In this document: one piece after another, positions 1,320 through 10,454 of the stretch
Layout of the letters: each line of letters opens with the position of its first letter
How positions within the stretch are numbered: position 1 is the stretch's first letter
NCBI GenBank assembly: GCA_030649165.1
Contig: JAUSGG010000145.1
Coordinates: 1-39,670 of the forward strand
Source of the DNA: Armatimonadota bacterium
GTDB taxonomy: Bacteria > Armatimonadota > UBA5829 > JAUSEB01
Length of the DNA stretch: 39,670 nt
Reading direction: 5' to 3'
The notes under the pieces: generated by a model
The model's input: the letters and a program-made list of their open reading frames with translations, nothing else
Database searches by the model: none
What the model was told of the DNA's origin: nothing
Made by a program: the position numbers and the translations under genes

Positions 1320-1349
1320 CACTAATGTGAGGCACGGAAAGGCTGAGAT

Positions 1350-2012
1350 TTGGAGAATTTGAAGAAGATAACGGACGACATTCACGCCGAGTTGATTGAG
1401 AAGAACTCGGCGCGGGAGAAGGCGCTGAGGGTTTCGCGGGAGGTGATTCGCCTCTCCGCTAACGCGATACGGGCCGTGCATCGTGAGGAGTTCGACGAGG
1501 CGCGCGGATTGATGGACGAAGCCAGGTCGAAGGTGGACGAGACGCGGAATCTGCTCAAAGACCAACTCGACATCTACTACGCCGGTTACGTGCAGGACGC
1601 CCAGAAGGAATACGCGGAATCGGAGTTGACGTCGGCCATAGTCCAGGACAGACCGATGCCGAGCCACCAGGAATTGAGGGTGGAATGCGCGGCTTATCTG
1701 AACGGTCTGGGCGAAGCCATCGGCGAATGCAGAAGGCACGTGCTGGACATAATAAGAAAGGGAGACCTCGTCCGGGGAGAAAAGCTTCTCCAGATAATGG
1801 ACGACGTCTACTATATGCTGGTGACCTTCGATTATCCCGACGCCGTTACCGGTGGACTTCGGCGGACCACTGACATGGTCCGGGGAGTATTGGAGCGAAC
1901 ACGGGGCGATCTCACGGTCACAATCCGCGAACAGGAGCTGGAACAGGCGATAGATACGGCTATCGCGCGTTTGAACAGTGAGAACTCTGGACAGAATCAG
2001 GGAGGCGACTAA
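1350..2012 (+). CDS. Translin family protein
   Basis: This all-helical 220-residue protein matches the translin/TRAX family along its length. REKALRVSREVIRLSANAIR lies near residues 22-41. YLNGLGEAIGECRRHVLDII follows at 116-135, and FDYPDAVTGGLRRTTDMV-type sequence further on. Translin and TRAX form barrel-shaped oligomers that bind and cut short RNA; the eukaryotic C3PO complex also processes tRNA fragments. Acidic pairs expected of a TRAX-like catalytic site are visible: E87/E90 in EYAE and E122/E126 in EAIGE. The TTG start has GGAAAGG 7 bases upstream. The 3' end overlaps the tRNA nucleotidyltransferase start by 35 bases, implying one operon and possible coupling. Family assignment is confident; nuclease activity is inferred. 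Confidence 0.9.
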   Translation: MENLKKITDDIHAELIEKNSAREKALRVSREVIRLSANAIRAVHREEFDEARGLMDEARSKVDETRNLLKDQLDIYYAGYVQDAQKEYAESELTSAIVQDRPMPSHQELRVECAAYLNGLGEAIGECRRHVLDIIRKGDLVRGEKLLQIMDDVYYMLVTFDYPDAVTGGLRRTTDMVRGVLERTRGDLTVTIREQELEQAIDTAIARLNSENSGQNQGGD

Positions 2013-3330
2013 GAGCTCGGAATACGAGGGGAGGCTGTATCTGGTCGGAGGCATTGTCCGCGATAAGATACTGGGCCTTCCCGAGGAACAGGATATCGAC
2101 ATCGTCCTGGAGGGCGATGCCGCCGCGCTCGCCGAGTTTCTGCACGATAAGGGTCTGACCGAGCATTTTCCCGTCGTGTATCCCCGATTCGGCACGGCGA
2201 TGGTTTCCCTGAACGGTCGCAAGGTCGAGCTGGTCAGCGCGCGGACGGAGAAGTACGAGCCGGAAAGCCGCAAGCCGGACGTGCAACTTGCATCTCTCCG
2301 CGACGACGCCCTCAGGCGCGATTTCACCATCAATACGCTCCTCGAAAACCTCCACACCGGCGAGGTCATAGACGTCCTCGGAACCGCGCTGTCGGACCTC
2401 AAGAACCGGACCATCCGTACCCCGACTGATCCCGTAAGCACATTCGCCGAAGATCCGCTCAGGATGCTGCGAGCTGTCCGATTCGCCGCGCGCTTCGGGT
2501 TCACGATAGACCGGGACGCGCTTGAGGCGATAAGGCAGGAAGGAGATCGGCTCTCGATTGTCAGCGGTGAGAGGATAAGAGACGAGCTGATCAAGATCCT
2601 CGCTTCCCAGGGAGCAATAACAGGCCTCGAGCTTCTGCGCGAGACCGGGCTTCTGCGGCGGTTTGCCCCTGAAATCGACAGAATGAGCGGCGTCACCCAG
2701 AATATCTACCACGTATACGACTGCTGGACGCATACGCTGAAGGCGCTGGAGGCGCTGCCGCCGGATGCGAGCCTCCGCCTGCGCCTGGCGACGCTTTTTC
2801 ACGACATTGGAAAACCGGATACGAGGACCGTGGACGAGGCGGGAAACGTGCACTTCTATTCGCACCAGACGGCGGGCGTGGAAATCGCTCGGCGGGTGAT
2901 GCGACGGCTGCGCTTCTCCAACGATGAGATCGGTTACGTGGCGCCGATGATCCACATGCACCTGAGGGTAGGAGAATACGATGACGAATGGTCGGACGCC
3001 GCCGTGCGCCGGCTGATCCGCGACGTCGGGGACATGCTCGATGATCTCATAGAACTCACCCGAGTTGACAAAGCCGCAAGCAATCTCGAAATGCCGTCGG
3101 TGGACCTGGAAGCGCTGCGGCGTCGAATCGCACAGGTCGAATCCGGGCTCGCGGCGGCGGAGATTCGAAGCCCGCTGAACGGCCACGAGATAATGCAGGT
3201 GTTGGGCGTCAAGCCGGGGCCGGTCCTGCGCGAGGCCAAGGATTTCCTGACCAACGAGGTCATCGAGGGGCGGCTTCGCCCCGGCGACAAGGCCGAAGCG
3301 GAGCGGCTGCTGAAAGAGAGGTTTGGGTAG
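1978..3330 (+). CDS. cca: CCA-adding-type tRNA nucleotidyltransferase with HD domain
   Basis: This protein of about 450 residues has a class II nucleotidyltransferase head, with GG at 24-25 and the DID metal pair at 39-41. RRDFTINTLL (113-122) and the EDPLRMLRAVRFAARFGF motif follow. The second half is an HD domain with H252, HD at 275-276 and H296. The enzyme adds or repairs the 3' CCA of tRNA. Some lineages split the work between A-adding and CC-adding enzymes, and poly(A) polymerases share these motifs, so exact specificity is uncertain. The GTG start lies inside the end of the translin gene and has no clear ribosome-binding site, which fits coupling to translin. A slightly later start cannot be excluded. 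Confidence 0.85.
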   Translation: MRTLDRIREATKSSEYEGRLYLVGGIVRDKILGLPEEQDIDIVLEGDAAALAEFLHDKGLTEHFPVVYPRFGTAMVSLNGRKVELVSARTEKYEPESRKPDVQLASLRDDALRRDFTINTLLENLHTGEVIDVLGTALSDLKNRTIRTPTDPVSTFAEDPLRMLRAVRFAARFGFTIDRDALEAIRQEGDRLSIVSGERIRDELIKILASQGAITGLELLRETGLLRRFAPEIDRMSGVTQNIYHVYDCWTHTLKALEALPPDASLRLRLATLFHDIGKPDTRTVDEAGNVHFYSHQTAGVEIARRVMRRLRFSNDEIGYVAPMIHMHLRVGEYDDEWSDAAVRRLIRDVGDMLDDLIELTRVDKAASNLEMPSVDLEALRRRIAQVESGLAAAEIRSPLNGHEIMQVLGVKPGPVLREAKDFLTNEVIEGRLRPGDKAEAERLLKERFG

Positions 3331-3730
3331 GCGGCCCCCTCCCTCCGATCCCCTCTTCCCCCCTCCAGAAACTTTTTTTAGAAAAATCTCCCCAACCCGG
3401 AACAAAACCCACCCGCTATTCACTACTAGTGGTCACTAGCGAGTGGTTAGTGGCCCGTGGTTAGCGGCTAGTGTCGGACTCGATCGAAGACAAAGACACC
3501 CCGGACGCTCTGTCGCACTAATCACGAACCACGAATCACTAGCCACTCAATCCGGAGCGGTTTCCGGACGAAACTGAAGCATTTCCAGAGAACGTGCGAC
3601 CTTTATAGCGGCTTTTTCACATTCCGGCTGTTTCGCCCTCAGGGAGAGGGGTCTCAGGAGTCGGCAGGAGGGTCTGGAAGCGGTGTACGACAACCAACAA
3701 CTAACAACCAACAACCAACAACCCGCCATC
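3331..3730. repeat. Gene-free stretch with word arrays
   Basis: Three things are visible here. A GTGGTTAGTG/CACTAACCAC-type array runs in both orientations (about 3418-3550). A short block resembles the double-hairpin family (about 3635-3665). AACCAACAA units follow (3687-3722). I found no plausible gene. Confidence 0.55.
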
Positions 3731-6404: not shown

Positions 6405-9400
6405 TTGAACACACCCGGTCTCATTTCGCCACGGCGGGCCGCAATAGCACAGGCTGCAACCACGGCGGTTATCGCCGCCCTCCTCATATTGACCTTACTG
6501 CTATTTGCCAATGCGCAGACGGTCGATCGCACCACTCTCACAGGCAGAGTGCTGTGCGGATACCAGGGCTGGTTCGCCTGCGAAGGCGACGGCGGCGGCC
6601 TCGGCTGGCAGCACTGGAGCCAGGGCGGGTCCGTCATCGGCCCCGACCTCTATAACACCGATGTCTGGCCCGACGTGACCGAGTATAACTCCGAGGACCT
6701 CTACAACTGCGGACCTCTCGTGACCTTGACGAACGGACAGCCCGGTTACCTGTTCAGTCCGAGGAAGCAGGGGGTTACGGATACGCACTTCAGGTGGATG
6801 CAGGAGAACAACATCGACGGCGTGTTTCTTCAGCGGTTTTCCGGCGGCCTGGGCAATCCGGGAGGCGCGGGCCAGCAGCACAAAGACGCCGTGTTGCAGA
6901 ACATAATGCGTTCCTCTTACAAATATGGCCGCACTTTCTGCATTGAATGGGATATCTCCGGAACGAGCGAACCCGAACTCTTCGACAAGCTGACAAATGA
7001 CTGGACCTACCTGAACACCACCTTCGATATGAAGAACCATTCGCGCTACCAGTACCACAATGGCAGGCCGGTCGTCTCGATCTGGGGCATCGGCATAACC
7101 GACCGGCCCGGCACCGCGCAACAATTCGAACAGATCATCGGCTGGTTCCACGGCCAGAACGTTTTCGTGATCGGCGGGGTAGCGCCCGGGTGGAGGACCC
7201 TCAGCGGCGTCAAGAACGACAACCCGGCCTGGTGGACCGCGGTCTACAACAGCCTGGACGGAATCAGTCCGTGGACTGTCGGGGCGTACGCGGACTGGGG
7301 CGGCATTCAGTACTTCAGAGACACTTTCTGGGGTCCTGATATCGTGGACTGCAACAGCCGCGGAGTGGTGTACATTCCGGTGGCCTGGTCCCGGTTTGGA
7401 TGGGACAACGCAAACCACCTGCCGTGCGGGACGTCCAAGTTTCCGACTCGCGGCGGACAGCATTTGTGGGACCAGAGTTACGCGCAGAAGAGTGTCGGAT
7501 CGACGACGCAGAAGATAGCCATGTTCGACGAATGTGATGAGTCGACCGCCATTCTGAAGATGTCCGACGACGTTCCGGTCACGGGCTGCTGGTGGACCAG
7601 CGAAGGTCTGCCTCACGATTGGTATCTCAGGCTAGCCGGCTACGGCGGCAAGATGTTTCGCGGCGAAATCCCGCTTTCCCAGACACTGCCGATCAGCCCA
7701 TCTAGCTCGCCGGACAACGCATCCGTTGTCAGCAACACCATTCCCTCGACGATGGCCCTGGGGCAGCAGTATTCCGTGTCGATCACGATGCAGAACACCG
7801 GCGAGACCTGCTGGAACTCCGAGTTCTTCAAACTGGCGGCGGTTGGCGATTCGGACCCCTTCACGACCACGACGAAATACGCGATGGCGTCCGGCGCGAC
7901 CGTCATGCCCGGCCAGCAGACGACCTTCAGCTTCACGTTGAGAGCCCCCGTCCGCGACGGCGTCTACGTCACCGACTGGGAGATGAGCCACGAGCTCATC
8001 ACGCGGTTCGGGGCCAAACTCGTGAAAGTGATCACAGTCGGGGCCGGCCCGACGATGCTTAACAACAGCGCGTTCCCCTCCAACTCCGACGGCTGGACTA
8101 CATCCACCTGGCGAGCTGGGACCTCCAGCTACGGCACGATGGCCTGGAACTCAGGAGCCGGCAACCCCGGAGGCGCGATGCGCAGCACGGGCGCCGGCAG
8201 CACGGACAACACCGACCGCTGCGCGCGCGAAGGCGGGGAGATAAGAAAGACGATCAGCTCGGTCGGTCATCAAGATCTGGTGGTCTCGTACGACCTGAGG
8301 GTGAACGCGCTTGGCTCGGACCGAACCGGGGCCGGGACGGGAACGTGCGCTGTGGACCACAGTCTGGTCGATGAACAGCTCAGCGTCTTCTATTCGACCA
8401 ACAGCGGCTCCAGTTGGACCGAGACCGACTGGCTGAAGAGAGGCGACTTGAAGGCGAGCTACTTGACCTACGGGACGCGCTACATCGATCTGTCGAGCGT
8501 AACAGCCTGCGATAACAACCCCAACTTCGCGCTTCGCTTCCGCTGGCAGCTCAACACCAGCGGCGACTACGCGGATTTGGACAACATAAAAGTGATGGGC
8601 AACATAATCGACATCACGGCTCCGGGTCCGGTCACCGGCGTATCGGCGGCGGGCGGGAACGAGCACGTGGCGTTGACGTGGACCAACCCCTCCGACCCGG
8701 ATTTCACAGGAACGATGGTCAGATACAGGACGGACACCTACCCGACGAGCGTAACAAACGGCTCTCTTGTCACAGACGAGCCCGGCTCGCCCGGAACGAG
8801 CGACGGCTGCATACACATCGGGTTGACAAACGGCGTGACGCACTACTACGCGGCGTTCGCGCACGATGACGGGGCGCATTACTCGACATCGGTCACGGCT
8901 TCGGGCGTTCCACAAGGGACGGTGGAAGAGTGGGTCAACGAGTCGTTTGACGCTTATCCGAACGGAAACCTCGGCGGCCTGAAATGGCGCGTCACAAGCG
9001 AGGCGAGCGCTCAGGTGCAGTCGGCAATGGCCAAAGGCGGAGCCGGAAAGGCGCTGCTTCTCGACACTATTGCGGCCGAGCGCCCTATCGCGAACGAGGT
9101 CGACTTCACCGGCAAGACGGCCGGATACTGCTATCTGAGCCTGGACGTCGCAAGCAACTCATCGGGCGGCTCGGTCGCGGATGCGATAGGATGCGTGACC
9201 GTGTACGGCTCGGATTCCGCGACTGAAATAGCGAGGCTGTGGATAGACCGTGGGGCCGGCGTTTTCAACCGTCTCCTGGTGGAATACGGCAGCGGCAGTT
9301 GGGCGGTGCTGACGGCGGCCGCGGTCAATGACACGTGGTACAACGTTAAGATCGGTTTCAACATAGACACGAGGCAGTTGGACCTGTGGCTGGACGGGTC

Positions 9401-10454
9401 CGGCAAAGGGACCAACTACGCCTGGAAAGGGACCGCGACCAACATCTCCAGGATAGCCATCTCAAGCGACGGAAACGCGAACCTGAGCCCGCGGAAGGCT
9501 TACATCGACAACCTGCGTTTCGAGCCGAAGCCTGGGGTCGTGTCCGAAGTGCGCGATGACGGAGGCTGGAGCCCGAGCCTCGACAAACTACACTTCAGCT
9601 TCGATCCCGTGCTCTACAGCGCCGAGTACAAGTATGCCATAGGAACCACCTCAGGCGGGACTCAGATACGAAATTGGACAAGCTGCGGGACCTCGACCGA
9701 CTACACAGCCACAGGATTGAGCCTCACCGAGAGCGCCAACTACTACATAAGCGTTCAATGCGGCACGTTGTATGGATTGTGGGGCGCGACAAAGAACGCC
9801 GACGGCGTCAAGGTCGCTCCGGGTATCGCGAGCATACAGGCTGCAAAAGCTCTCGCGGATGGAGCGCCGACGGATGTCAAGGCTCTCCGAAGTAAGATCG
9901 TCACCGGCGTCTTCCCCGGCTGCTTCTACATCCAGGAGCCGGGCAGCCTTTGCGGCTTAAGAATAGCCTCCACCACCTTTGTCGCTCCCGGCAACGAAGT
10001 TGACGCCTGCGGAGTGATGAAAGGCTCAGGGGCCGAAAGATACGTCGACACAACAGGCTGTGGGATCATCAAGACGGCTCCCGGCCCGGGTCTTCCCAAC
10101 ACGGTAGTCTTGCCCAACGCCTCCGTCGGCGGAGCGGACTTGAACGCTTACACTCTCGGAGTAGATGGCGGGATCGGACCCAACAACATCGGCCTGTATG
10201 TGACCGCCTGTGGAAGAGTGACCCAGAGGCAGAGCGCCGATCCGAAGTACTTCTACATCGACGACGGCTGTGGTCTGATAGACGGAACCCAGATGGCGGG
10301 CGTGGACAACGTGGGTATCCGTATCAACGCGGACCCCGCCGGCTATCCCCAAGGCGCTTATGTTGTAGTGACCGGCGTCAGTTCAGTCTTCTCCGACGCC
10401 GGCCAACTAAAGCGCCAAGTCCTTCCCAGCGAGGTCAGAGTCTTGGCTCCGTAG
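6405..10454 (+). CDS. Secreted multi-domain GH99/GH71-like glycosidase
   Basis: This 1349-residue exported protein has a signal peptide (RR, a hydrophobic core, cut after ANA near residue 37). Residues 45-425 resemble the GH99/GH71-like hydrolases, with LCGYQGWFACEGDG, WPDVTEYNSEDL, FRWMQENNIDGVFLQRF, FCIEWDISG and VVSIWGIG. An NBR1-type Ig-like domain (about 435-545) follows, then a galactose-binding-like jelly roll (550-735), an FN3 domain (738-835), a LamG-like jelly roll (845-1060), and a second FN3-like domain. The last ~205 residues form two OB-like repeats shared with the gene ending at 17673. The TTG start has GAGGGGGCGG about 5-7 bases upstream. It probably attacks an external polysaccharide; the exact substrate is unknown. 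Confidence 0.8.
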   Translation: MNTPGLISPRRAAIAQAATTAVIAALLILTLLLFANAQTVDRTTLTGRVLCGYQGWFACEGDGGGLGWQHWSQGGSVIGPDLYNTDVWPDVTEYNSEDLYNCGPLVTLTNGQPGYLFSPRKQGVTDTHFRWMQENNIDGVFLQRFSGGLGNPGGAGQQHKDAVLQNIMRSSYKYGRTFCIEWDISGTSEPELFDKLTNDWTYLNTTFDMKNHSRYQYHNGRPVVSIWGIGITDRPGTAQQFEQIIGWFHGQNVFVIGGVAPGWRTLSGVKNDNPAWWTAVYNSLDGISPWTVGAYADWGGIQYFRDTFWGPDIVDCNSRGVVYIPVAWSRFGWDNANHLPCGTSKFPTRGGQHLWDQSYAQKSVGSTTQKIAMFDECDESTAILKMSDDVPVTGCWWTSEGLPHDWYLRLAGYGGKMFRGEIPLSQTLPISPSSSPDNASVVSNTIPSTMALGQQYSVSITMQNTGETCWNSEFFKLAAVGDSDPFTTTTKYAMASGATVMPGQQTTFSFTLRAPVRDGVYVTDWEMSHELITRFGAKLVKVITVGAGPTMLNNSAFPSNSDGWTTSTWRAGTSSYGTMAWNSGAGNPGGAMRSTGAGSTDNTDRCAREGGEIRKTISSVGHQDLVVSYDLRVNALGSDRTGAGTGTCAVDHSLVDEQLSVFYSTNSGSSWTETDWLKRGDLKASYLTYGTRYIDLSSVTACDNNPNFALRFRWQLNTSGDYADLDNIKVMGNIIDITAPGPVTGVSAAGGNEHVALTWTNPSDPDFTGTMVRYRTDTYPTSVTNGSLVTDEPGSPGTSDGCIHIGLTNGVTHYYAAFAHDDGAHYSTSVTASGVPQGTVEEWVNESFDAYPNGNLGGLKWRVTSEASAQVQSAMAKGGAGKALLLDTIAAERPIANEVDFTGKTAGYCYLSLDVASNSSGGSVADAIGCVTVYGSDSATEIARLWIDRGAGVFNRLLVEYGSGSWAVLTAAAVNDTWYNVKIGFNIDTRQLDLWLDGSGKGTNYAWKGTATNISRIAISSDGNANLSPRKAYIDNLRFEPKPGVVSEVRDDGGWSPSLDKLHFSFDPVLYSAEYKYAIGTTSGGTQIRNWTSCGTSTDYTATGLSLTESANYYISVQCGTLYGLWGATKNADGVKVAPGIASIQAAKALADGAPTDVKALRSKIVTGVFPGCFYIQEPGSLCGLRIASTTFVAPGNEVDACGVMKGSGAERYVDTTGCGIIKTAPGPGLPNTVVLPNASVGGADLNAYTLGVDGGIGPNNIGLYVTACGRVTQRQSADPKYFYIDDGCGLIDGTQMAGVDNVGIRINADPAGYPQGAYVVVTGVSSVFSDAGQLKRQVLPSEVRVLAP

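Follow-up and report, generated by a model that had tools for sequence, protein, structure and literature searches.

The window analyzed here, namely the whole stretch of 39,670 nucleotides of an Armatimonadota genome, carries near its beginning two overlapping genes on the forward strand, hereafter called translin and cca, with these features:

1336..1342 (+), Shine-Dalgarno-like GGAAAGG of the translin gene, read from the sequence (duplex energy of -4.1 kcal/mol against ACCUCCUUA)
1350..2012 (+), predicted TRAX-type protein of the translin superfamily, 220 residues, TTG start (NF011160, E=5e-84; AfTrax 3zc1, E=5e-21; predicted fold)
1608..1619 (+), codons of E87-x-x-E90, the first acidic pair, aligning with human TRAX E126/E129 (both positions kept in 104/104 relatives)
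1713..1727 (+), codons of E122-x-x-x-E126, the second acidic pair, aligning with human TRAX D193/E197 (alignments and conservation)
1978..2012 (+), 35 bases shared by the reading frames of translin and cca (ends of the open reading frames; overlaps in 12 other genomes)
1978..3330 (+), predicted class II CCA tRNA nucleotidyltransferase with HD domain, 450 residues, GTG start (domains; sole PF01743 gene)

Antisense open reading frames lying over the locus on the minus strand (1278-2696 and 1960-3423) were discarded, since the plus-strand frames hold conserved families. Upstream of the pair, a plus-strand gene (786-1148) encodes a STAS-domain protein resembling anti-sigma-factor antagonists, which scores at the Pfam cut-off and does not recur next to translin in other families. 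Repeats of the CACTAATCACGAACCACTAACCACT type occur between genes on both sides of the operon (247-271, 3516-3554 and 3699-3723), and further downstream a plus-strand frame of 1349 residues (6405-10454) contains in mid-protein an Ig-like domain from next to BRCA1 (N_BRCA1_IG, 3e-10). PADLOC returned no match for a defence system at the locus.

The product of the first gene belongs to the PRK14562 group of NCBIfam (NF011160, E=5e-84), and a single-sequence search against PDB sequences retrieves AfTrax (E=5e-21) and NEQ131 (E=8e-8). We built a profile from 104 bacterial relatives, the alignment of which was translated directly from DNA and extends down to about 37% identity. This profile finds AfTrax (4e-41), NEQ131 (1.5e-17), human TRAX (3e-6) and fly TRAX (8e-6), and gives no significant match to eukaryotic translin (0.5). 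The AlphaFold2 model is all-helical (pLDDT 97.6, pTM 0.90), and its top PDB matches in Foldseek are all C3PO, TRAX or translin structures; AfC3PO (target TM up to 0.91), NeC3PO and the TRAX chains of human and fly C3PO are the best, and translin chains are weaker. The earlier note had called the protein a bacterial translin; its place in the translin superfamily is retained but the translin type is not, since profile and fold both point to the TRAX type. Judged by sequence and model, the protein is a TRAX-type, predicted catalytic member that comes closest to the C3PO of archaea and differs from subunits of the translin type, and its gene is the only one of the translin family in the genome.

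Curated libraries tend to hide this family. The NCBIfam entries NF011156-NF011161 (PRK14562), named 'haloacid dehalogenase superfamily protein', cover TRAX-type proteins of the translin family and their name looks wrong; a haloacid dehalogenase identity was rejected here because the predicted fold is that of an all-helical translin. The Pfam Translin model (PF01997) does not match our protein, though it recovers 78 of the 104 relatives when values of E<=1 are allowed, the best being 1e-7. A match to this model depends on its threshold and does not define the family; the miss is a shortcoming of the model and is outweighed by the direct matches to TRAX.

The catalytic quad of TRAX proteins, ExxE ... 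(D/E)xxxE, is present and aligns with the corresponding residues of human TRAX, AfTrax (E/E/D/E) and NEQ131. E87, E90 and E126 are kept in every one of the 104 relatives and E122 in 103, with D in the remaining one; in the model, the first pair lies on helix 79-98 and the second on helix 113-136. The suggestion that these residues fit a TRAX-like active site is therefore upheld by an invariant quad within a TRAX fold, and because the active-site residues are conserved, the protein is likely to be a nuclease.

The second protein combines PolyA_pol (PF01743, 2e-25), RNA-binding (PF12627, 6e-19) and HD (PF01966, 8e-9) domains with the class II motifs LVGGIVRD...DIDIV, RRDFTIN and EDPLRMLRAVRF, which agrees with its previous assignment to CCA-adding-type tRNA nucleotidyltransferases. 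The motifs GGxxRD/DxD, RRD and EDPxRxxR mark class II CCA-adding enzymes, in which a flexible loop is needed for the addition of A; across this loop region, the protein aligns without gaps with cca2 9ns4. Its scores fall below the curated cut-offs of the NCBIfam CCA models, including that of TIGR02692 (9.5e-93). Since cca is the only gene of the PolyA_pol family (PF01743) in this 99%-complete genome, a division of labour between separate CC- and A-adding enzymes was set aside, and the enzyme probably adds the complete CCA.

The reading frames of the two genes overlap by exactly the 35 bases reported earlier (1978-2012), GTG 1978 being the sole start codon within reach of the conserved N-terminus of the cca protein. 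No Shine-Dalgarno sequence is found upstream of this start (anti-Shine-Dalgarno pairing of +1.2 kcal/mol), in line with the earlier observation that cca lacks a good ribosome-binding site of its own. Across the 17 genomes in which the two genes are linked, median Shine-Dalgarno energies are -7.4 kcal/mol for translin, -3.3 for cca and -2.0 for background. The frames overlap in 13 of these 17 pairs, twelve by 26-44 bases and one by a single base (TGATG), the other four having gaps of 15-118 bases. Because the overlap is kept in 12 other genomes, its occurrence by chance is excluded. The translational linkage that the earlier note had proposed is strengthened by overlaps in 13 genomes of three families; with overlapping frames, little ribosome binding of its own at cca and conservation, the pair has the look of a translationally coupled operon.

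Translin was found in 55 of 61 genomes of relatives and is near-universal in Armatimonadota, including 27 of the 28 class genomes considered here. In 17 of these 27, cca immediately follows translin in the same orientation (two are undecided at contig ends), and the possibility of neighbours in this genome only, raised by the earlier note, is excluded together with that of a one-genome accident. The pair is present in families f1 (2/2), f3 (2/2) and f4 (3/3, the fourth f4 being a fragment), and in family f2 in genera g3 (5/5), g7 (3/3), g9 (1/1) and g8 (one, the other g8 being cut by a contig end). The flanking genes differ among these four families and only the translin-cca pair is kept between them: rpoN occurs 3' of cca only in f2, and smpB only in f4. 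No adjacency occurs in genus g6 (3/3 apart) or in family f5 of the same class (5/5 apart), and the fact that f5 possesses both orthologues in separate places counts against a functional pairing as favoured below. Trees of the two proteins, in which internal branches are weakly supported, can be reconciled with a single origin of the pair within the class and its later loss from f5 and from g6.

Some neighbours deserve mention in their own right. The tmRNA partner gene smpB follows translin-cca in two f4 genomes (L067, L069), a small conserved frame of 62-122 residues, matching nothing in Pfam, precedes translin in f2 only (L153-L156, L158, L159), and a tRNA-SeC gene lies near the operon of G003 of family f3 (L070, 13824-13923, minus strand). 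Genus g6 (G006, G008, G016; L045, L046, L048, L167-L169) has unlinked, fast-evolving translin and cca genes plus a second cca-like gene. Its translin scores about 203-212 bits vs 270-293 in f2 peers and its cca 220-257 vs 440-591, and the scores of its RNase PH and RNase E/G are only slightly lower. In the sole class member lacking translin, G013 (L162), cca is likewise divergent and nothing exceeds the RNase PH cut-off. This pattern is suggestive of coupled evolution of translin and cca, resting on one lineage.

As a whole, these results are best explained by a homo-oligomeric TRAX-type single-strand RNase that would be co-produced with a tRNA end-repair enzyme, a tentative reading to which we assign a probability of roughly 45%. 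That the pair has outlasted its reshuffled neighbours makes a link of the TRAX-type protein to the care of tRNA plausible.

The link has a restricted distribution. Among 80 named loci from GTDB genomes, cca lies within 6 kb of translin in only four, all of this class, and none of 27 further Armatimonadota has cca adjacent to translin; in G033, cca lies 3.8 kb away on the opposite strand. Translin loci of Chloroflexota and Actinomycetota have no cca alongside, and in many Chloroflexota translin adjoins the gene for ThiD2-TMP synthase, H+-PPase, RNase HII and YraN. Nor do tRNA genes lie beside translin in any regular pattern in the relatives, which likewise counts against the preferred reading. 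The survey of gene neighbourhoods that had been suggested earlier hence yields a divided answer, with adjacency across 17 genomes of the class but confinement to that single class of Armatimonadota and unrelated neighbours elsewhere. Because the flanks are scrambled, the link is stronger than inherited synteny; it is a lineage trait, weaker than a family-wide rule.

Such a distribution would also suit general RNA decay, in which the oligomer would break down short single-stranded RNAs whatever their source, and the pairing with cca would be a historical, co-regulated housekeeping operon of one class whose products share no substrate. We regard this alternative as quite possible, if less probable than tRNA care: translin is far more widespread than its linkage to cca, which was lost in f5 and g6, and its neighbours outside the class are not tRNA genes. 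Against it stand the persistence of the pair across four families in which all other neighbours have changed, the overlap kept in 13 genomes and the precedent of archaea, in which TRAX genes too are linked to a tRNA gene, that of SepRS.

The state of the tRNA 3' ends bears on what the CCA enzyme would do. All 35 distinct tRNA genes examined in the genome, from 30 tRNA loci (L171-L200), end in an encoded CCA, as do three of three in G003; ARAGORN reports CCA-less tRNAs elsewhere in the genome set, for instance in G047 and G041. RNase PH exceeds its cut-off in 27 of the 28 class genomes and RNase E/G is present, two enzymes that in E. coli belong to the RNase Z-independent route. Since CCA is encoded and these enzymes are present, the CCA enzyme would serve for end repair, not first synthesis; tRNA ends are probably made by an E. 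coli-like route. On the same grounds, the earlier idea of a tRNA maturation or quality-control pair is weakened in its maturation half and shifts toward repair or turnover. Processing of tRNA 3' ends, however, looks complete with RNase PH and RNase E/G even without the TRAX-type protein, another point against our reading.

The class may have lost canonical RNase Z: none of its 28 genomes reaches the cut-off (the best, G006, has 272 bits against 293 and the rest are under 70), other Armatimonadota families have the enzyme, and in the genome studied here the nearest match is a PhnP-like MBL protein of 42.5 bits, with no RNase Z of the Thermotoga type. It could be imagined from this loss and the encoded CCA that the TRAX-type protein cuts the 3' trailers of pre-tRNA, with RNase PH then trimming and the CCA enzyme mending ends that were trimmed too far. 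We consider such a role improbable in view of the presence of RNase E/G and RNase PH, of translin in 11 of 12 relatives that do have RNase Z, and of G013, which has neither translin nor RNase PH; as a mere stand-in for missing RNase Z, translin is excluded since its presence does not correlate. Even less probable is a non-catalytic chaperone that, like eukaryotic translin, would present single-stranded ends of tRNA to the CCA enzyme. Although binding of single strands is a property of the translin fold in itself, and translins are also among the weaker matches of the predicted fold, the four catalytic acids are invariant, human translin lacks the first acidic pair by alignment and the sequence profile reaches TRAX, not translin.

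Under the preferred reading, of an RNase co-produced with a tRNA end-repair enzyme, the locus would be a two-gene, translationally coupled operon. Its first product would assemble into a closed homo-oligomer like archaeal C3PO, carrying a metal-dependent site for single-strand endoribonuclease activity made of the two acidic pairs, and its second would be the only CCA-adding enzyme of the cell, translated mainly by ribosomes that have completed translin and reinitiate at the overlapping GTG. This enzyme would mend frayed 3' ends of tRNAs in which CCA is already encoded, and the nuclease would most likely clear single-stranded RNA from the same sphere, such as leaders, trailers and broken or unrepairable tRNA. 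That tRNA is a substrate of the nuclease is our guess from gene order and precedent. A more specific proposal, which we find rather doubtful, is that bacterial C3PO is a dedicated nuclease of tRNA quality control that in this class performs, with the CCA enzyme, a repair-or-destroy step on 3' ends. If true, the role in tRNA metabolism that C3PO has in Neurospora would reach into bacteria and be connected with the TRAX-SepRS operons of archaea.

Prokaryotic TRAX homologues and the archaeal TRAX-SepRS operon have already been published. Neurospora C3PO removes 5' fragments of pre-tRNA (Li et al. 2012, as cited in PMC3834833), Trax of N. equitans degrades RNA on its own (PMC9051087), and many archaea have SepRS operons that begin with a TRAX gene (Mukai et al. 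2017, PMC5424206; PMC8762117). For members of the translin superfamily in eubacteria, the authors of the latter work refer to Gupta et al. (2012) (PMC5424206, PMC8762117). The open-access papers searched, which did not extend to Gupta et al. (2012) or Zhang et al. (2016), contain no description of a TRAX-cca pairing. Nor did the literature searched contain experiments on any bacterial TRAX-type member, which also counts against our reading. As TRAX-type proteins occur in nearly all Armatimonadota and often in Chloroflexota, with no bacterial functional study found, the conserved overlap with cca gives bacterial TRAX a testable function.

Among known systems, the closest is AfC3PO of Archaeoglobus fulgidus (AfTrax; PDB 3zc0, 3zc1), likewise a TRAX-type protein encoded by a single gene with the corresponding acidic quad. 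Its best matches to our model combine 28-30% identity in structural alignment with rmsd of 1.6-1.9 A and the TM values of up to 0.91 (target) given above; it differs in being archaeal and in having Asp, not Glu, at the third acidic position, and no cca neighbour was found described for it in the literature examined. NeC3PO of Nanoarchaeum equitans (NEQ131; PDB 5jr9, 5jrc, 5jre), which consists of TRAX alone and was solved with single-stranded RNA, has the same fold and acidic quad but is less similar (21% identity). The eukaryotic translin-TRAX complex (C3PO) shares the TRAX fold and the catalytic residues (human E126, E129, D193 and E197); it is, however, a hetero-oligomer of two paralogues, whereas the present genome has a single translin-family gene. 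The archaeal TRAX-SepRS operon similarly joins a TRAX gene to a gene acting on tRNA, although the partner is an aminoacyl-tRNA synthetase instead of a CCA enzyme and the organisms are archaea, not Armatimonadota. Together, this operon and the overlap with cca point towards tRNA as an old theme of the nuclease family.
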